Positions 36,843-48,007 of a stretch of 64,000 nt of DNA are shown piece by piece. The position numbers and the translations under genes were made by a program. Position 1 is the stretch's first letter, and every line of letters begins with the position of its first letter. The stretch is from Alphaproteobacteria bacterium 46_93_T64 (GTDB lineage: Bacteria; Pseudomonadota; Alphaproteobacteria; Sneathiellales; Sneathiellaceae), in the NCBI GenBank assembly GCA_002163135.1, contig MAAN01000041.1, positions 129,020-193,019 on the forward strand. Reading direction: 5' to 3'. The notes beneath the pieces are model-generated. The model made no database searches. It was given only the letters and a program-made list of their open reading frames with translations, and was not told the origin of the DNA.

Positions 36843-37481
36843 TCAGTCGCCGAGTTTTGTTGATAAATAGGCAATAATCATTTTAAGTAGTTCAGCCAGC
36901 AACAGATCAGAATCCTCTTTGGATTTTAACTCTGTTGCGCGCCGGACAACGGCGGTTGTCATAATAACAATAATGCGAACTATGTTTTTTGCTTCTTTAG
37001 ATGGTAATTCTTGTGCTTCCAGCAAGCCATACCGAGAGAAAAAATCGATCATCCTGTTTGTAGAAGCTTGATTGATACCTTCCCATTCAGTGTTGTTTGC
37101 GAGAGCCGCATTCAGTTTTTGATGTAGAATATTTTCTGTTTCAACTTTGATATGAGCGTTTACCACTACCTTTACGACATGCCGCCAATGGGCTTGTTCA
37201 CTTACTTCATCAAAGATCTTCTTCAACCGTTGGTCTTTTGCATTGAGTACACGCTCCCCCAACGCAAGCAAAACGCCATCTCGATCTTCAAAATATTGGT
37301 AAACTGAACCCACCGGAACATTTGCTTTTTCCGCTATTAGGCTGGTCGTAATTTCGGACGGATCGCAACTGATAACGAGCTGCTCCGTTGTTGCAATGAT
37401 CCGTTCAACCCGTTCTTTCGATCGAAGTTGCAGGGGCGTTTTGCGTGCTTTTATTTTGTCAATTTGCATATGGGTTTTCAT
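36843..37481 (-). CDS. TetR family transcriptional regulator
   Basis: 212 residues. N-terminal helix-turn-helix (about 20-65): RIIATTEQLVI, then TTSLIAEKANVPVGSVYQYFEDRDGVLLALGE, the TetR hallmark. The C-terminal ligand domain is unrelated to any I can name. Divergent from the beta-helix/diheme cytochrome pair and convergent with the SDR gene, so either could be its target. Start 37481 or 37469. Confidence 0.9.
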   Translation of the reverse strand: MKTHMQIDKIKARKTPLQLRSKERVERIIATTEQLVISCDPSEITTSLIAEKANVPVGSVYQYFEDRDGVLLALGERVLNAKDQRLKKIFDEVSEQAHWRHVVKVVVNAHIKVETENILHQKLNAALANNTEWEGINQASTNRMIDFFSRYGLLEAQELPSKEAKNIVRIIVIMTTAVVRRATELKSKEDSDLLLAELLKMIIAYLSTKLGD

Positions 37482-37534
37482 AATATATGAATTGTGTTCA
37501 CGTTAATAACTTGACCAAAGCAGGTAAATTGCAA

Positions 37535-37555
37535 AAACTAAAATCTAGCTAGTTT
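37535..37555. promoter_or_regulatory. Possible TetR operator
   Basis: Inverted repeat AAACTA (37535-37540) and TAGTTT (37550-37555) with a nine-base spacer, midway between the TetR gene and the beta-helix gene. Its size and place suit a TetR-type operator, but six-base AT-rich arms can arise by chance. Confidence 0.35.
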
Positions 37556-37626
37556 CTGAAATTTAGCGGAATACACATATAAAGGATATATAAAATGATA
37601 AAATACAGTGTAGGCGAGGATTATAA

Positions 37627-38913
37627 ATGAGATTCCTAGCTAAAAAACTGACTTCAATATGTACCCTTTATGTCATTATATTTGCGAACTTGAGTTCGGC
37701 GATCGCAGGAAGTGATTACGTCATTTTACCGGGCGATGATGCTCAGGAGAAAATACAAGAAGCTTTGATACTGGCAGAACCAGGGGACCAGATTGAACTT
37801 GGCGCAGGCGTGTTTAAACTAACTGACGGTTTGTCTCTAGATGTCGACAATGTCACCTTAATTGGTCAGGGGATGTATAAAACGGTCCTTTCATTCAAAG
37901 GGCAGAAAAGTGGATCAGAAGGTCTGCTCGTAACTTCAGATCAAGTGGTGCTGAAAGACTTCGCCGTTGAGGATACAAAAGGCGATGCAGTTAAAATCAA
38001 GGGCGTCGATGGAATAGCAATGATCCGCTTGCGGGCAGAATGGACGGATGGACCTAAACCTACTAACGGGGCTTACGGTCTTTATCCGGTGCAATCGAAG
38101 AATGTGTATATTGACGGTTGTGTCGCAATTGGTGCCTCAGATGCTGGTATTTATGTCGGGCAAAGCGACAAGATAATTGTTCGTAATAGCAGGGGTGAAT
38201 ATAATGTGGCCGGTTTGGAAATTGAAAATAGCTTTAACGCTGATGTTTTCGATAATGTCTTAACGCACAATACCGGAGGTCTACTTGTTTTCGACTTGCC
38301 GAACCTCCCACAACAAGGTGGACATAATGTTCGATTTTTCCGCAATAAATCCATAGATAACGACACTCCCAATTTTGCACCAGAAGGAAATATTGTTGGT
38401 ATTGTACCGCGCGGCACGGGGATGATAGTGATGGCGAATGAAAATGTTGAGATTTTCGACAATGAATTTTCCGGTAACGATACAATGAATATTGCTGTTG
38501 CCAGTTATGTCGACGATTTTGATGACGAGACCTATGAGCCAACCCCAAAGAAAATTCATATACACAACAATATTTTTGGAAAATCAGGACAGAAACCAGA
38601 TACTGGTGAGTTTGGAACCATCGTACACGAAACAGTCGGAACTCCTGTCCCTGATATTGTCTGGGATGGCGTGCTACCGCTGATGGATTACATTTTCTTT
38701 GGGCAAGCAGATGAAGACAAACTGGCCATACACGATAACAAGCATCTAGCAGGTGTCCGTCCGTTTGGTAATGCGAACATGATCATGCATGTTATCGCGC
38801 CCATATTCCATAAAGCAAAATTTGATATATTACCTTATCAGAAATCATACCCTTCGCTCCCAGAGGTTGAAGTCATTATTAGAGGTCGCCCAGCTGCGGA
38901 ATTGATGAATTAG
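37627..38913 (+). CDS. Secreted parallel beta-helix repeat protein
   Basis: 428 residues. Signal peptide about 1-27 (LYVIIFANLSSAIAG). The rest is a right-handed parallel beta-helix: regular rungs such as VTLIGQGMYKTVLSF, VVLKDFAVEDTKGDAVKI, VYIDGCVAIGASDAGIYV, IIVRNSRGEYNVAGLEIE and NVEIFDNEFSGN. It matches the family I know as a beta-helix protein usually found next to a HNE_0200/SO2930-type diheme protein (TIGR03805/03806 pair, from memory). A pectate-lyase-like fold, but no lyase active site is evident. The stop is followed directly by the ATG of the cytochrome gene (TAGATG). Confidence 0.85.
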   Translation: MRFLAKKLTSICTLYVIIFANLSSAIAGSDYVILPGDDAQEKIQEALILAEPGDQIELGAGVFKLTDGLSLDVDNVTLIGQGMYKTVLSFKGQKSGSEGLLVTSDQVVLKDFAVEDTKGDAVKIKGVDGIAMIRLRAEWTDGPKPTNGAYGLYPVQSKNVYIDGCVAIGASDAGIYVGQSDKIIVRNSRGEYNVAGLEIENSFNADVFDNVLTHNTGGLLVFDLPNLPQQGGHNVRFFRNKSIDNDTPNFAPEGNIVGIVPRGTGMIVMANENVEIFDNEFSGNDTMNIAVASYVDDFDDETYEPTPKKIHIHNNIFGKSGQKPDTGEFGTIVHETVGTPVPDIVWDGVLPLMDYIFFGQADEDKLAIHDNKHLAGVRPFGNANMIMHVIAPIFHKAKFDILPYQKSYPSLPEVEVIIRGRPAAELMN

Positions 38914-39996
38914 ATGTTTTCGCGTGTCTTTTTACAGCTTGTTGCAACGGCCTGTTTGTTCGTTGGGGTTTCTTCGTCTGTTTGGGCTGAAACGGCCATA
39001 AATGATGAACTTCTTATGGCTAAGAAGCCTGCAAAGAAACTCGCCGACTACGGTTTGTTTTTGGATGAAGCTGCGCGTCAACCAATGACGCGCGTCATTT
39101 CGTATGAGCTTAACAATCCGTTGTTCACAGATTATTCGCTGAAATACAGGTTTATCTATATTCCTCGAAATGCTGGCGGCGCGCCTTATGATGAAACAGA
39201 TGTTCTGGCATTTCCTGTAGGCAGTGTTTTGGGTAAAACGTTTGCCTATCCAAATGATTTCAGATCACCAGACAAAGACATCCGTTTTATTGAAACGCGT
39301 TTACTTATTCACAAACAATCAGGTTGGAAAGCGTATCCGTACGTCTGGAATGACGCGCAGACAGAAGCAAAATTGAAAGTTGCTGGAAAAAGAAAATCTA
39401 TACCCGTTATCTGGAAGGACGGCACTCAAAGCTCTATCGACTATGCCGTGCCAAACATGAACCAGTGCAAAGGCTGTCATGTGACTTCAAACAAAAAACT
39501 CGCGCCCATTGGTCCCAAAATCCGAAATCTAAATCGAGATCATAGTTCTGGCGATGCCGTTTTTCAAAATCAGGTTTCGTATCTTCGTGATATTGGATTT
39601 ATTCAGGGCGGGCCAAAACAACCAAGTAAAATGCCAAGAGTGCCTGAGCCGTTGAATGTGGAAAGTGGAAGTTTGTTTAAACGGGCACGATCCTATTTGG
39701 ATGGAAACTGTGCCCATTGCCATGCCCCTGGCAGGCCTGCTGATACGAGTGGTTTATATTTGAACTATGAGGAAAAGCGTGAGGTGCACTGGGGTGTGAA
39801 TAAACATCCCGTTGCTGCAGGGCGCGGTGCCGGTGGGTTGAGGGTAGATATAAAGCCGGGGCAGCCTGAAAAATCCATTCTGTTTTATCGAATGAAGAGT
39901 ACTGATCCCGGAATTATGATGCCAGAACTTGGTCGATCCACCGTTCATTTGGAAGGTGTAGACCTTATAGGTAAGTTTATAACGGAGCTAAAGTAG
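38914..39996 (+). CDS. SO2930/HNE_0200 family diheme c-type cytochrome
   Basis: 360 residues. Signal peptide about 1-25. Two heme c motifs: C185-x2-C188-H189 (QCKGCH) and C266-x2-C269-H270 (NCAHCH). The N-terminal 170 residues form a family-specific domain with RVISYELNNPLFTDYSLKYRFIYIP. It should be a periplasmic electron carrier or heme enzyme. Directly coupled (zero gap) to the beta-helix gene; the partnership is the conserved hallmark of the family. What the pair oxidises or reduces is unknown to me. Confidence 0.88.
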   Translation: MFSRVFLQLVATACLFVGVSSSVWAETAINDELLMAKKPAKKLADYGLFLDEAARQPMTRVISYELNNPLFTDYSLKYRFIYIPRNAGGAPYDETDVLAFPVGSVLGKTFAYPNDFRSPDKDIRFIETRLLIHKQSGWKAYPYVWNDAQTEAKLKVAGKRKSIPVIWKDGTQSSIDYAVPNMNQCKGCHVTSNKKLAPIGPKIRNLNRDHSSGDAVFQNQVSYLRDIGFIQGGPKQPSKMPRVPEPLNVESGSLFKRARSYLDGNCAHCHAPGRPADTSGLYLNYEEKREVHWGVNKHPVAAGRGAGGLRVDIKPGQPEKSILFYRMKSTDPGIMMPELGRSTVHLEGVDLIGKFITELK

Positions 39997-44981: not shown

Positions 44982-47663
44982 TTATTCTGCGGCGATCATG
45001 CTAAGATTAATCAATTCCTGTATTTCCGATCGGCATGACCCACAGTTTGTTCCGGCATATATGTGCTCGCCAATATCTTTAACAGTTGCGCATCCTTGCT
45101 CTGTAATGGCGGTTTGTATTTGGTTGCAACCGACGGAAAAGCAGGAACAGACGATTGAGCCAGTGTCAGGTGTGTCTGCAGGAGGGCGACCAGCCGTGAC
45201 AGTGTATCGGAGGAGCGGATTGTCAAAGATATTTCCAAGTTGTGTTGTCGCCCAAGATTTTGAAATGTCTACTGCTCTGCGAGAAAGATATAGCGCTCCG
45301 ACAAACTCCCCACTTTCAAATGCTGCAAAACGGTGTTCCCCTTTACTGGTATCCCTATAGGTGACGAGATCACCAGCAATAAGTGATTCCATCCCTAAAA
45401 TGTTTGCAGCAAGTTTTGTATAGCTTGCCGGGATTTTCTTTAAGGCCAGTTCAACTCTCCAGCCACCGTCACATTTAGCAGCGGCCCAATAGTCGGCCCT
45501 AATCTCGACAGGTTTAGTTTTGGTAATCACAAAACCTTGTAAAACGGTTTCAAATAATCGAAGCTGACAATTTGAATTTTTGAGCGCAGGTTGACCTGAA
45601 TATGGATCCACAATCGCGGGCACAAGAGCGTCAACGCGGGCGCGTGACGCAAATTGATCATTCCAGTGAATTGGTACAAATACGGAATTTTTTTGCACCC
45701 TATCAGTGATATGGGCACGAACAACAATCAATGATTGTTCACTGGAAACTTCAACCAAATCTCTCTCAGATATATGAAGTTCTTTGGCATCATCCGGATG
45801 AATTTCAACAAACGGTTCCATCATGTGTTGTGATAGCCCTGGGCTTTTGCCGGTTCGGGTCATCGTATGCCAGTGATCCCGTACACGTCCGGTGTTTAGG
45901 GTTAGCGGGAACTTTTCAGATGTCGGTTTTTTCGGGGAAGATTTTTGTAATTGAAATTTTGCTTTCCCATCAGGTGTAAAGAAACCGCCATCAGTAAAAA
46001 ATCTCTTATCAGAAGTGTCTCCGGCGACTTTAATAGGCCACTGAACAGGGGCTAATTTTTCATAATATTCTTGGCTTATATCTTTAAGGCCTCCGATATC
46101 AAAATCGCGACTACCGCTATTTTTAAATGCGGAAAGGGCCGCGAATTCCTTCGCAATTTCATAGGATGATTTGTAGGGGAACTCGCTTGAATAGCCCATG
46201 CGACGGGCAACCTCACTCAGTTGCCACCAGTCAGGTTTTGCATTTTCTGGTGCCTTTAAGAAAGCTTTTTGATGGGATATGCGGCGCTCTGAATTTGTAA
46301 CCAATCCGTCTTTTTCTCCCCAGCCTAAACTGGGAAATTTAATGTGGGCTAGGGCGCTAGTATCTGTATCTACTTGAATATCTGAGACCACAACTAATGG
46401 ACACGCTTGCAGGGCGGCTTTCACTAAATCCGCATCGGGCATACTGTCCACAGGATTTGTAGCCATGATCCAAATTGCTTTGATCTCACCGCTCATAACA
46501 GAATTGAACATATCTACGGCTTTAAGACCCGGCTTGTCTGGGATCATTGGAGAGTTCCAAAATTCCTGTACGATCTCGCGGTGGTCTGAGTTTTCAATGT
46601 CCATATGGCAGGCAAGCATGTTGGCGAGGCCGCCAACTTCTCTACCACCCATAGCGTTGGGCTGTCCAGTGATTGAAAACGGTCCCATGCCTTCCTGGCC
46701 AATCCTCCCAGTAGCCAAGTGGCAATTGAGGATCGAATTTACTTTGTCAGTGCCAGAGACTGACTGATTGACGCCTTGGCTGTAAACGGTGACTGTTTTT
46801 TCGTGTTTGGCAAACAGCTCATAAAATGTTGCGAGTTCCGGCTGCGTTAGACCTGTGTGGTCAGCAATATTTTGATCGTCGAACAAGCAGGCAGCATTCA
46901 TCGCCTCTTCGAAGCCGGTTGTGTGTCTGTTGATATAATCTGTATTCAAATGTCCATTGTTTGCAAGGTAGGCAAGCAATCCTTGAAACAAGGCGACATC
47001 ACCATCCGGTTCGATCGCCAAGTGAAGGTCGGCAATATCAGCGGTCATCGTTTTTCGGGGGTCGATCAAGACTACTTTCATTTCAGGTCTTGCTTCTTTC
47101 GCGGCGGCGATGCGTTGATAGATGACAGGGTGGCACCATGCGAGATTAGATCCGACAATTATGATCAAGTCTGCAAGCTCCAGATCTTCGTATGTGCCGG
47201 GAACTGTGTCAGATCCAAAGGCACGTTTATGGCCGGCAACACTGGAAGACATGCAAAGGCGAGAGTTCGTATCGATATTGGCGGAACCAATAAATCCCTT
47301 CATAAGCTTATTTGCGACATAATAGTCTTCTGTCAGCAATTGACCGGAGACATAAAACGCGACGGATTCCTTTCCATGTTCTTTAATAGTTTCTTTGAAT
47401 TTGGTTGCCACAAGGTCAAGAGCGATATCCCAGTCCACTCGATTTCCATAAACCTCCGGATGTAAAAGTCGACCAGACAGGTCCAGCGTTTCCCCAAGCG
47501 CGGATCCTTTCGAACAAAGCCGGCCGAAGTTAGCAGGATGATCTGGATCCCCCTTGATATCGACGGAGCCATCGGCAAGGGGCGTTGCAAGAACACCGCA
47601 CCCGACGCCGCAGTAAGGGCAGGTGGTTTTTACAGTTTTCCCTGTCTGTGTAATGTCGAGCAT
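44982..47663 (-). CDS. nasA: Assimilatory nitrate reductase, catalytic subunit
   Basis: 893 residues, molybdopterin-guanine-dinucleotide enzyme that reduces nitrate to nitrite in the cytoplasm. N-terminal [4Fe-4S] ligands C15-x2-C18-x3-C22 and C50 (LCSKG). Mo-pterin regions such as WIMATNPVDSMPDADLV and LNTGRVRDHWHTMTR follow. A C-terminal BFD-type [2Fe-2S] domain has CSC and GTNCGSC. No twin-arginine signal. Its start overlaps the nirD stop (TAATG). Last gene of the nitrate operon. Confidence 0.96.
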   Translation of the reverse strand: MLDITQTGKTVKTTCPYCGVGCGVLATPLADGSVDIKGDPDHPANFGRLCSKGSALGETLDLSGRLLHPEVYGNRVDWDIALDLVATKFKETIKEHGKESVAFYVSGQLLTEDYYVANKLMKGFIGSANIDTNSRLCMSSSVAGHKRAFGSDTVPGTYEDLELADLIIIVGSNLAWCHPVIYQRIAAAKEARPEMKVVLIDPRKTMTADIADLHLAIEPDGDVALFQGLLAYLANNGHLNTDYINRHTTGFEEAMNAACLFDDQNIADHTGLTQPELATFYELFAKHEKTVTVYSQGVNQSVSGTDKVNSILNCHLATGRIGQEGMGPFSITGQPNAMGGREVGGLANMLACHMDIENSDHREIVQEFWNSPMIPDKPGLKAVDMFNSVMSGEIKAIWIMATNPVDSMPDADLVKAALQACPLVVVSDIQVDTDTSALAHIKFPSLGWGEKDGLVTNSERRISHQKAFLKAPENAKPDWWQLSEVARRMGYSSEFPYKSSYEIAKEFAALSAFKNSGSRDFDIGGLKDISQEYYEKLAPVQWPIKVAGDTSDKRFFTDGGFFTPDGKAKFQLQKSSPKKPTSEKFPLTLNTGRVRDHWHTMTRTGKSPGLSQHMMEPFVEIHPDDAKELHISERDLVEVSSEQSLIVVRAHITDRVQKNSVFVPIHWNDQFASRARVDALVPAIVDPYSGQPALKNSNCQLRLFETVLQGFVITKTKPVEIRADYWAAAKCDGGWRVELALKKIPASYTKLAANILGMESLIAGDLVTYRDTSKGEHRFAAFESGEFVGALYLSRRAVDISKSWATTQLGNIFDNPLLRYTVTAGRPPADTPDTGSIVCSCFSVGCNQIQTAITEQGCATVKDIGEHIYAGTNCGSCRSEIQELINLSMIAAE

Positions 47664-48007
47664 TATTTCTTGCCGTTGTTGGTTCTACGCAACTCAAGAA
47701 GAATATCATTTCCATCCAACTTAACTGGAAAACTCAAGGTTTCTCCTTTATCAGCTCCTTGAGCTTGTCCGGTTTCAAGTGATATGACCCAATTGTGAAG
47801 CGGACAGGTGACGCACCCATCGTGTACAATTCCTTGACTAAGTGGCCCGTTTTTGTGGGGACATTTATCTTCCAGTGCAAAAACCCTGTCATCGGCACTT
47901 CTGAAAAGGGCGATCGTCATATCTCCGTTTTGGACGCATCGGGCGCCTCGTTTGGGAATGTCTGATAATTGCCCGATTTTGATCCAGTTTTCAGTATGTG
48001 CATTCAT
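47663..48007 (-). CDS. nirD: Nitrite reductase (NADH) small subunit, Rieske-type
   Basis: 114 residues. The complete Rieske ligand set is present: C49-x-H51 (DKCPHKNG) and C68-x2-H71 (TCPLHNW). Some NirD proteins have lost these, so this one probably holds a real [2Fe-2S] cluster. Helps pass electrons to NirB. Coupled to nirB by an ATGA overlap and to nasA by TAATG. Confidence 0.95.
   Translation of the reverse strand: MNAHTENWIKIGQLSDIPKRGARCVQNGDMTIALFRSADDRVFALEDKCPHKNGPLSQGIVHDGCVTCPLHNWVISLETGQAQGADKGETLSFPVKLDGNDILLELRRTNNGKK

Follow-up and report, generated by a model that had tools for sequence, protein, structure and literature searches.

Introduction

Cytochrome P460 carries an unusual catalytic heme that has been studied in ammonia and methane oxidisers, and the chemistry characterised for it is the oxidation of hydroxylamine. 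Among proteins built on a right-handed beta-helix, the AlgE4 epimerase has a catalytic set composed of Tyr149, Asp152, His154, Arg195 and His196, and NosD serves the copper site of nitrous oxide reductase. According to Table 2 of PMC11928373 and the available portion of PMC6427953, the positions of McP460 that matter here are numbered Pro71, Gly73, Lys78 and Arg50, and the same portion of PMC6427953 adds Trp24 and Lys115 to the fully conserved set of P460. With regard to beta-helix proteins of family TIGR03805, a member annotated as such, Bcam1339, lies in a Burkholderia exopolysaccharide cluster, where the part of PMC3584217 available to us mentions no cytochrome. As for the gene pair formed by TIGR03805 and the diheme cytochromes of TIGR03806, no functional study was found in the literature searched, in line with what an earlier note on this DNA had said of its function. 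Here we analyse one such pair in a window of 64,000 nucleotides, the whole stretch of DNA examined, from Alphaproteobacteria bacterium 46_93_T64.

Results

The locus. The features of the locus are collected in Table 1.

Table 1. Features of the locus, in window coordinates.
Feature	Position	Strand	Details
TetR-family gene, divergent; probable local regulator	36843..37481	-	PF00440 TetR_N 28.3 bits, PF17918 TetR_C_15 28.6 bits
Inverted repeat, candidate TetR operator	37525..37565		16-nt arms, 88% complementary, 9-nt gap; between TetR and beta-helix genes
Beta-helix gene, TIGR03805	37627..38913	+	428 aa, predicted exported right-handed beta-helix; 406.4 bits
Diheme cytochrome c gene, TIGR03806 ("SO2930 family")	38914..39996	+	360 aa, predicted exported; 367.4 bits
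P460/c'-beta-like domain with heme 1	39004..39621	+	Cytochrome residues 31-236: R79, P101-x-G103-x4-K108, C185-x2-C188-H189
C-terminal heme-2 domain	39661..39993	+	Cytochrome residues 250-360: C266-x2-C269-H270, M336-P337

The TAG stop of the beta-helix gene (38911-38913) directly abuts the ATG of the cytochrome gene (38914-38916), both proteins begin with what on inspection are Sec-like signal peptides, and both score above the curated cut-offs of their families (141.5 bits for TIGR03805 and 313.3 bits for TIGR03806). The cytochrome has two CxxCH motifs (residues 185-189 and 266-270), as expected of a two-heme TIGR03806 protein, and its residues 250-360 are a probable class I cytochrome c. 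The earlier note was therefore accurate in describing two genes with a TAGATG junction, signal peptides on both products, and these two families. It had also suggested a periplasmic or surface site; the proteins do look exported, but a surface location is not evident for the window pair: inspection revealed no lipobox in either protein. Lipobox-like motifs are seen in 18/92 beta-helix and 26/107 cytochrome ORFs of plausible length among the relatives. The AlphaFold models have pLDDT values of 91.6 (beta-helix) and 88.3 (cytochrome).

Conservation of the pair. In a survey of 398 sampled Pseudomonadota genomes, the window's own included, TIGR03805 was found over its curated cut-off in 45 genomes and TIGR03806 in 37, all of which are among the 45 (hypergeometric P ~1e-44, with shared ancestry ignored). 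The beta-helix gene adjoins the cytochrome gene on the same strand in 33 of these 37 genomes and forms a single ORF with it in the other four (L031, L032, L033 and L066); two further single-ORF fusions, L067 and L068, fall under the TIGR03806 cut-off, and a natural fusion of both proteins has ~880 residues. The pair analysis leaves out four genomes whose TIGR03806 matches are all weak (G333, G367, G180 and G185), as well as an additional TIGR03805 match below the cut-off in G122. When named loci were considered, namely the 80 best-scoring of the 584 cytochrome relatives listed, a choice biased to close relatives, the beta-helix gene immediately preceded the cytochrome gene in 69 loci, lay one ORF from it in one and was fused to it in another, and could not be located in nine. 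A mirror-tree comparison of both proteins across 108 loci (L073 and multi-row loci left out, species tree not controlled for) gave a Spearman correlation of 0.67, against a maximum of 0.11 in 200 permutations, which fits co-inheritance of the two proteins. Judging from record titles among the matches listed, the cytochrome, mostly with the beta-helix, occurs in Pseudomonadota including SAR86, Bacteroidota, Planctomycetota, Acidobacteriota, Neomarinimicrobiota and Binatia, and Hyphomonas is also among the listed cytochrome-bearing matches. We consider it almost certain that the beta-helix protein and the cytochrome form a functional unit. The genome survey that the earlier note had proposed as a check thus found co-occurrence beyond chance, kinship being ignored, and its view of the pair as a conserved unit holds in every sampled genome with TIGR03806 over the cut-off.

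The heme-1 domain. In the VIA-align fold comparison of the cytochrome, the top 17 entries, which correspond to six proteins, were all P460 or c'-beta structures (Z 7.2-5.4, the next entry being at 3.7), and the best single match was the c'-beta 7s5o (Z 7.2), tied to within 1 with P460 entries. The model has the beta-sheet fold ending in CxxCH seen in these proteins, at Z values below 8 that make the match a moderate one. When profiles were compared with hhalign, using 21 of 22 loci (L178 left out), the score against P460 was 51.7 (P 2e-7; best of 130 shuffles 30.1), with 33 columns in the confident part of the alignment; taken separately, residues 113-236 scored 27.5 and residues 31-95 scored 11.6, and the score of the C-terminal domain was 23.4 over 10 columns. 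PDB sequence searches with single proteins gave no matches, and Foldseek alone returned nothing for the cytochrome at E < 0.001, its list mixing P460/c'-beta with unrelated folds. The cytochrome profile retrieved from the PDB only other c-type cytochromes, none of them P460, the best match, in the heme-1 motif, being to a trimeric cytochrome c555 (E 4e-7, a value that sums three repeats of ~11 bits each), so that the P460 link rests on fold and profile-profile comparison. On that basis, the heme-1 region is very probably a P460/c'-beta-type heme domain. Because the Pfam P460 model, PF16694, did not match the window cytochrome at E 0.001, nor anything else in its genome, we file the protein as P460-like and not as a member of Pfam P460.

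Residue conservation was read from an alignment of 126 cytochrome rows, 123 of them distinct (the repeats are L073, identical to the window, L121, identical to L042, and L148, identical to L060); length filters removed no row from this or from the beta-helix alignment. K108, which occupies the position of the P460 cross-linking lysine in the PxGxxxxK register, is found in all 123 distinct rows, R79 in 121, and E127, a candidate distal carboxylate (Glu96 / Asp102 position) whose strand register is uncertain, in 122. The spacing of P101, G103 and K108 in the window equals that of Pro71, Gly73 and Lys78 in McP460, and the motif also contains Lys106 of AL212 P460, as counted from the alignment. 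The R79-K108 distance is 28 in 106/123 distinct rows, as between Arg50 and Lys78 of McP460, and 29 in the window, and the stretch from K108 to CxxCH measures 77 residues in most rows. The heme-2 CxxCH is present in 123/123 distinct rows and M336 in 121/123, with 2 gaps. Apart from H189, H268 and H270 of the heme motifs, only M336 among the histidines and methionines reaches 93% conservation, and therefore no sixth ligand is evident for heme 1. We rate a Lys-cross-linked catalytic heme at this site as somewhat more likely than not.

The beta-helix groove and its other partners. The A-module fold of AlgE4 was recovered for the beta-helix protein with Z 34.9 and rmsd 2.7 over 306 residues, and AlgE4, AlgE6 and the polysaccharide lyase RbmB together span Z 34.9-30.9 over 306-309 residues at 16-20% identity. 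The profile match to AlgE4 (E 0.0026) is poor around the AlgE4 catalytic residues. Within the main beta-helix alignment (111 rows, 108 distinct, with the same three repeats), Y150, Y153, D172, Y176, Q179, E198, E200, N201 and N215 of the groove are invariant in 108/108 distinct rows and F222 is kept in 107. Whether a carbohydrate-type ligand occupies this groove is, in our judgment, evenly balanced; the beta-helix fold is widespread (439/693 chains at Z >= 8), hence the ligand could be something other than a glycan.

All six over-cutoff TIGR03805 proteins without TIGR03806 have a CxxCH of their own and are encoded after a CCP_MauG gene. In the four of six sister-family proteins that were compared, none of which has the P460 domain, most of the groove is retained, an indication that it is not merely a docking face for that domain. 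As far as sequence can tell, redox coupling of the TIGR03805 beta-helix recurs with different heme partners, and the same groove is wired in two ways, either to a P460-diheme protein or to a fused monoheme and a MauG-like peroxidase.

Neighbours and regulation. We inspected all 87 directly downstream ORFs. Upstream or divergent candidates numbered 161 (79 + 82), and from these 74 were hand-picked, with spurious-looking ORFs left out. The tallies cover the 25 commonest of 81 (downstream) and of 80 (upstream/divergent) families, and because a simple rule-based procedure defined the ORFs, errors among the neighbours are possible. A TonB plug was encoded in 7/87 downstream ORFs and GSDH, a PQQ sugar-dehydrogenase domain, in 2/87, TetR accounted for 13/74 selected upstream or divergent ORFs, and a cluster of related ORFs of TetR-like size (median 212 aa) supplied the immediate neighbour of the pair at 10 of the best 80 loci. 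Thus, of the earlier note's suggestion that a divergent TetR gene may control the pair, the gene itself is confirmed, but control is plausible for only part of the family. As a guide to substrate, these 87 downstream and 74 upstream or divergent ORFs showed recurring TonB and TetR and no consistent substrate. On an annotated Novosphingobium plasmid, the pair is flanked by TonB receptors and dehydrogenases. No exact palindrome was common to the 14 TetR-pair intergenic regions, the window's included. Two overlapping 9-mers, AAAGTGAAA and AAGTGAAAC, each occur in 6/14 of these regions.

Discussion

The pair is probably a previously undescribed oxidation enzyme of the cell envelope. Our fuller reading, which we offer tentatively and with a little less than even confidence, is that the two proteins are the subunits of one oxidoreductase located in the periplasm or the outer envelope. 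The beta-helix protein, with its epimerase/polysaccharide-lyase fold, would bind the substrate, for which a glycan or a similar polymer is the likeliest candidate, in its Tyr/Asp/Glu/Asn groove, and would contact the cytochrome, whose N-terminal P460-type domain would hold heme 1 with its distal side open and lined by R79 and the cross-linking K108. Heme 1 would oxidise the substrate held in the groove, and heme 2 (His270/Met336) would receive the electrons and hand them to the cytochrome c pool of the periplasm. Some relatives point to sugars: GSDH is the partner in 4/4 sub-cutoff TIGR03806 fusions without beta-helix, a GSDH gene comes after the lone cytochrome of L123, and Bcam1339 belongs to an exopolysaccharide cluster. 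In the strongest form of the proposal, the pair would represent a new enzyme class, oxidoreductases that modify glycans by means of heme: the beta-helix holds the polymer, a Lys-cross-linked P460 heme oxidises it and heme 2 exports the electrons. Under this form, a tyrosine-derived cofactor made in the groove by MauG or P460 is also conceivable. We regard the strongest form as unlikely. The earlier note had envisaged an oxidase acting on a polymer or on a copper- or iron-linked substrate; a redox enzyme working on a beta-helix-held substrate is retained here, the copper link is not, and the matches to a P460-type heme site and an epimerase-type beta-helix make our reading the more specific of the two.

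Alternatively, the diheme protein might only relay the electrons of another enzyme, the beta-helix being a scaffold or an adhesion domain and the P460-like pocket a relic of the fold, a possibility we rate as rather unlikely. For the GSDH-TIGR03806 fusions, accepting electrons is the function that first suggests itself, and two of them, L071 and L072, have no R79 and fail to align around M336. The Shewanella literature, in the portion available, also counts SO_2930 and SO_2931 among outer-membrane cytochromes. Such retention of K108, R79 and E127 as we report, however, would be unexpected for a relic, and the beta-helix groove is invariant too.

It is on the whole improbable that the pair is a small-molecule enzyme or sensor, in which heme 1 would handle NO, hydroxylamine or peroxide and the beta-helix would only localise it. 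Fold and motif are those of hydroxylamine-oxidising P460, and one c'-beta has peroxidase-like activity according to the available part of the review PMC11928373, but no ammonia or methane oxidiser appears by name among the matches listed, and the invariant groove would be left unexplained. A nitrogen-oxide or copper link was rejected: NosZ, as judged by the TIGR04244 model only, is over cut-off in 1/37 pair genomes, with ~4.9 expected.

That same scarcity of NosZ bears on a NosD-type delivery of copper, with the beta-helix loading a metal site and the cytochrome acting as reductant, which we consider very improbable: NosDFY does appear in the fold list (Z 29.3), ABC_tran is encoded in 3/74 selected upstream or divergent neighbours, and NosD models match weakly (PF05048 at 29.5 bits, and TIGR04247 at 33.8 bits, short of its cut-off of 300), but AlgE4 and AlgE6 are the better fit (Z ~35). 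A role in metal reduction is disfavoured to the same degree, given two hemes only, a spread that reaches SAR86, Hyphomonas and Bacteroidota among the matches listed, and no single-mutant phenotype in the available portions of the literature searched.

The P460 assignment provides a testable hypothesis for a pair that previously had none, as it predicts that the ferrous protein has its Soret band near 450-460 nm. If the assignment is correct, the P460 superfamily would gain a branch with two hemes and a partner protein, from organisms that are not known as nitrifiers, and another role would be suggested for two outer-membrane cytochromes of Shewanella that are commonly classed with the metal-reducing ones.

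Compared with described systems, the pair in the window does not stand out from other TIGR03805/TIGR03806 pairs (in NCBIfam, "beta_helix_1" with "SO2930 family diheme c-type cytochrome"), being alike in scores and gene order and with no difference seen; the pair is widespread, and what is new is the functional reading, with the match of the first ~200 residues of the cytochrome, heme 1 included, to P460/c'-beta. The cytochromes P460 of N. europaea, M. capsulatus and Nitrosomonas sp. AL212 (PF16694) resemble the window cytochrome in fold (its residues ~28-238), in the PxGxxxxK motif containing the Lys of the cross-link, in the position of the distal Arg, and in a CxxCH near the domain end. The window cytochrome differs in being 10-14% identical to them in fold alignments, in escaping the Pfam model, in the 77 residues that separate K108 from CxxCH in most rows of its family, and in having heme 2 in an additional C-terminal domain and a beta-helix protein as partner. 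The window family keeps the Lys that is absent from c'-beta proteins, which have Met or Phe there in the entries of Table 2 of PMC11928373. The AlgE4 and AlgE6 epimerases and the RbmB lyase share the right-handed beta-helix of the window protein, which at the low identity reported above is likened to them by fold only, and which has a redox partner. Finally, operons that encode a MauG-type diheme peroxidase and a beta-helix-monoheme protein have the same groove and heme partners encoded alongside, but in place of the TIGR03806 protein of the window they use the fused monoheme together with a MauG-like protein encoded separately.

Results

Location and conservation of the pair

The genes for the beta-helix protein and the diheme cytochrome c, both predicted to be exported, were found where the earlier note had placed them, the stop codon of the former abutting the start codon of the latter, and their assignment to TIGR03805 and TIGR03806 was upheld by the family scores (see table). 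Among the matches listed, the closest named relative is Sneathiella glossodoripedis, with 63% identity in the cytochrome. Elsewhere in the window, a reading of the sequence finds genes that probably serve assimilatory nitrate/nitrite reduction.

Coordinates of the features discussed (window positions unless a locus, L, is named)
Feature	Position	Strand	Basis or remark
TetR-family gene, divergent from the pair	36843-37481	-	Pfam match
Inverted repeat, 16-nt arms, between TetR and beta-helix genes; candidate operator	37525-37565		repeat search
Beta-helix ORF, TIGR03805	37627-38913	+	score far over curated cut-off
Diheme cytochrome ORF, TIGR03806	38914-39996	+	score far over curated cut-off
Molybdopterin nitrate-reductase-like gene with C-terminal iron-sulfur region, and Rieske-type small protein	44982-48007		sequence reading
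PQQ sugar-dehydrogenase (GSDH) + TIGR03806-like fusion ORF	L069:6868-10458		very large
GSDH + TIGR03806-like fusion ORF	L070:7382-13498		very large
GSDH + TIGR03806-like fusion ORF	L071:6379-13488		very large
GSDH + TIGR03806-like fusion ORF	L072:6719-13192		very large
Pair within a run of DUF1501 and PSCyt1 genes	L131:1696-7883		Flavobacterium sp. SUN052
TonB receptor gene beside pair seemingly split by annotated IS5 transposase gene	L180:9711-13503		Novosphingobium sp. EMRT-2 plasmid pABRDHK22

In a sample of 398 genomes from the phylum Pseudomonadota, with presence defined as a score over the curated family cut-off, TIGR03806 occurred in 37 and TIGR03805 in 45, all 37 lying within the 45 (P ~1e-44 for co-occurrence, with the relatedness of genomes ignored). 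The two genes adjoin on the same strand, or are merged in a single ORF, in 37/37 TIGR03806 genomes, as expected from the earlier claim that they are conserved as a unit. Single-ORF fusions occur at loci L031, L032, L033 and L066; those at L067 and L068 score under the cut-off for TIGR03806. At L031 and L032 a second TIGR03806 cytochrome gene lies near the 881-residue fusion, giving two copies per genome, a layout that resembles that of SO_2931/SO_2930. Of the other eight TIGR03805 genomes, G193 and G078 carry the two sub-cutoff fusions, and in six the beta-helix is divergent (L074-L077, L181, L182). All six divergent proteins carry a single CxxCH of their own, and their genes directly follow one that Pfam calls CCP_MauG (6/6). 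Over-cutoff TIGR03805 proteins are thus linked to a c-type cytochrome in 45/45 cases in this sample, whether as a pair, as a fusion, or through their own CxxCH and CCP_MauG neighbour, and the divergent loci represent a second, P460-free pairing of the same beta-helix with redox proteins, in which a MauG-like gene is followed by a beta-helix-monoheme gene. A cytochrome c gene precedes this set in L074, L076, L077, L181 and L182; an AraC gene is additionally present in L074, L077 and L181, and a TonB receptor gene lies upstream in L074 and L077 and divergently in L076.

Among 80 named loci, the best 80 of 584 cytochrome relatives, the beta-helix gene is directly upstream of the cytochrome in 69, one ORF away in one (L131, where the intervening gene encodes a 397-aa protein that matches no Pfam family) and fused in one (L140); it was not found in nine, two of which (L087, L154) are at contig ends. 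By record title, the matches listed span Pseudomonadota, Bacteroidota, Planctomycetota, Acidobacteriota, Neomarinimicrobiota, Hydrogenedentota and Binatia.

Structural likeness of the cytochrome to P460

When an AlphaFold model of the cytochrome (29-sequence alignment, pLDDT 88.3) was compared with solved structures, the top 17 matches, from six proteins, were all cytochromes P460 or c'-beta, with 116-139 residues aligned inside model residues 28-238 and Z 7.2 to 5.4, values that the tool's own note rates as moderate (Z < 8); the 18th match dropped to Z 3.7. Such a list is telling, because the fold search is blind to heme and yet returned only heme proteins at the top. In an independent comparison, a profile of residues 31-236 (126 rows), set against 21 proteins from PF16694 loci, gave a probability of 93.7 and a score of 51.7, against 15.6 for the best of 30 column shuffles and 14.9 for the reversed set on the P460 side, and 30.1 for the best of 100 query shuffles; two random halves of the cytochrome rows scored 51.9 and 47.4. 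The confident part of this alignment covers 33 columns only, and the signal lies mainly in residues 60-115 (34.1 alone, with 27.5 for 113-236 and 11.6 for 31-95); with the confidence filter off, the heme-1 CxxCH pairs with the CxxCH of P460. In a PDB sequence search with the cytochrome profile, the best match was to a cytochrome c555 trimer rather than to P460, and it fell on the heme-1 motif.

Across 123 distinct cytochrome rows, both heme motifs, P101 and K108 are invariant, and E127 (122/123), R79 (121/123), G103 (118/123) and M336 (121/123, with two gaps) are kept. Besides M336, no His or Met beyond the heme motifs is conserved at 93% in this alignment, so heme 1 would have no obvious sixth ligand and may be open, unlike heme 2, for which Met336 is the predicted ligand. 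E127 is a candidate distal carboxylate, the residue type needed for NH2OH oxidation.

The groove of the beta-helix

The beta-helix model (pLDDT 91.6), also compared with solved structures, best matched the mannuronan epimerase modules of AlgE4 and AlgE6, at Z ~35 and rmsd 2.6-2.7 across 306-309 residues. Next came an alginate epimerase/lyase (Z 33.6) and the RbmB lyase (Z 31); lower in the list are polygalacturonases, phage proteins and, at Z 29.3, NosD. Groove residues on successive rungs (Y150/Y153, D172/Y176/Q179, E198/E200/N201, N215/F222) are invariant in 108/108 distinct rows except F222 (107/108), and the strand pattern of the model indicates that Y153, Y176, E198 and E200 should face outward. 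The divergent proteins of L074-L077, which occur without TIGR03806, keep Y150, D172, Y176, E198, E200, N201, N215 and F222, with Y153 replaced by Phe and Q179 by Met. Because the groove is retained despite a change of redox partner, a ligand site explains it better than a docking face for one partner.

Discussion

Our best reading is that a glycan-like substrate would be held in the beta-helix groove, that the substrate or a group on it would be oxidised by a P460-type heme on a contacting cytochrome subunit, and that heme 2 would pass the electrons outward. Of this, the analysis establishes the anatomy and the conservation, while the lysine cross-link, the open heme, the direction of electron flow, the subunit contact and the substrate are inferred. 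A tie between the cytochrome and carbohydrate oxidation is suggested by sub-cutoff TIGR03806-type domains without a beta-helix, which are fused to GSDH in 4/4 proteins (L069-L072), and by Chitinophaga L123, where a GSDH gene comes after a cytochrome without a beta-helix. L071 and L072 contain starch-binding modules, and L070 has modules of the F5/8 type. K77, R79, K108 and E127 are kept in L069 and L070 (G103 is Arg in L069); K77, R79 and R129 are altered in L071 and L072, E127 also in L072, and the M336 region of both is not alignable. The GSDH fusions carry, variously, InlB-type repeats and F5/8 type C, ThuA, CBM26 and DUF1592-type domains. The same GSDH partners also favour the alternative that the cytochrome is an electron relay. 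A NosD-type role for the beta-helix is disfavoured, as NosZ (TIGR04244) is over cut-off in 53/398 genomes but in only 1/37 pair genomes (G146). Of the earlier interpretation, the conserved unit and a redox enzyme acting on a polymer stand, the latter as the best reading, while a copper link is not supported by the NosZ (TIGR04244) counts.

In agreement with the earlier statement that the pair has no known function, a literature search limited to open-licence papers found neither a functional study of it nor a report of P460 joined to it; one paper lists a TIGR03805-annotated protein as part of a Burkholderia exopolysaccharide cluster (PMC3584217). The pair is already a catalogued family; the new leads, which open it to testing, are the heme site of P460 type and the invariant groove on the epimerase fold.

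In M. capsulatus cytochrome P460 (McP460), the cross-linking Lys78 and Gly73 are kept in all 144 P460 sequences of one study (PMC6427953), and Pro71 and Arg50, the latter above the heme, within the subgroup of McP460 (PMC6427953; PMC11928373, Table 2); Trp24 and Lys115 are further conserved P460 residues (PMC6427953). In the window, P101, G103 and K108 have exactly the spacing of Pro71/Gly73/Lys78, and R79 lies upstream of them. R79 and K108 are 28 positions apart in 106/123 distinct rows, which is the McP460 distance; for the window the value is 29. By counting along an alignment, Lys106 of the Nitrosomonas sp. AL212 P460 occupies the motif position of K108, which may likewise form a cross-link. 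According to section 6 of PMC11928373, all characterised cross-link-deficient P460 proteins are inactive, and peroxide restored the cross-linked enzyme in one case, so the lysine allows a clear-cut test. Since c'-beta proteins have Met or Phe where P460 has this lysine (PMC11928373, Table 2), its retention makes the window family P460-like rather than c'-beta-like.
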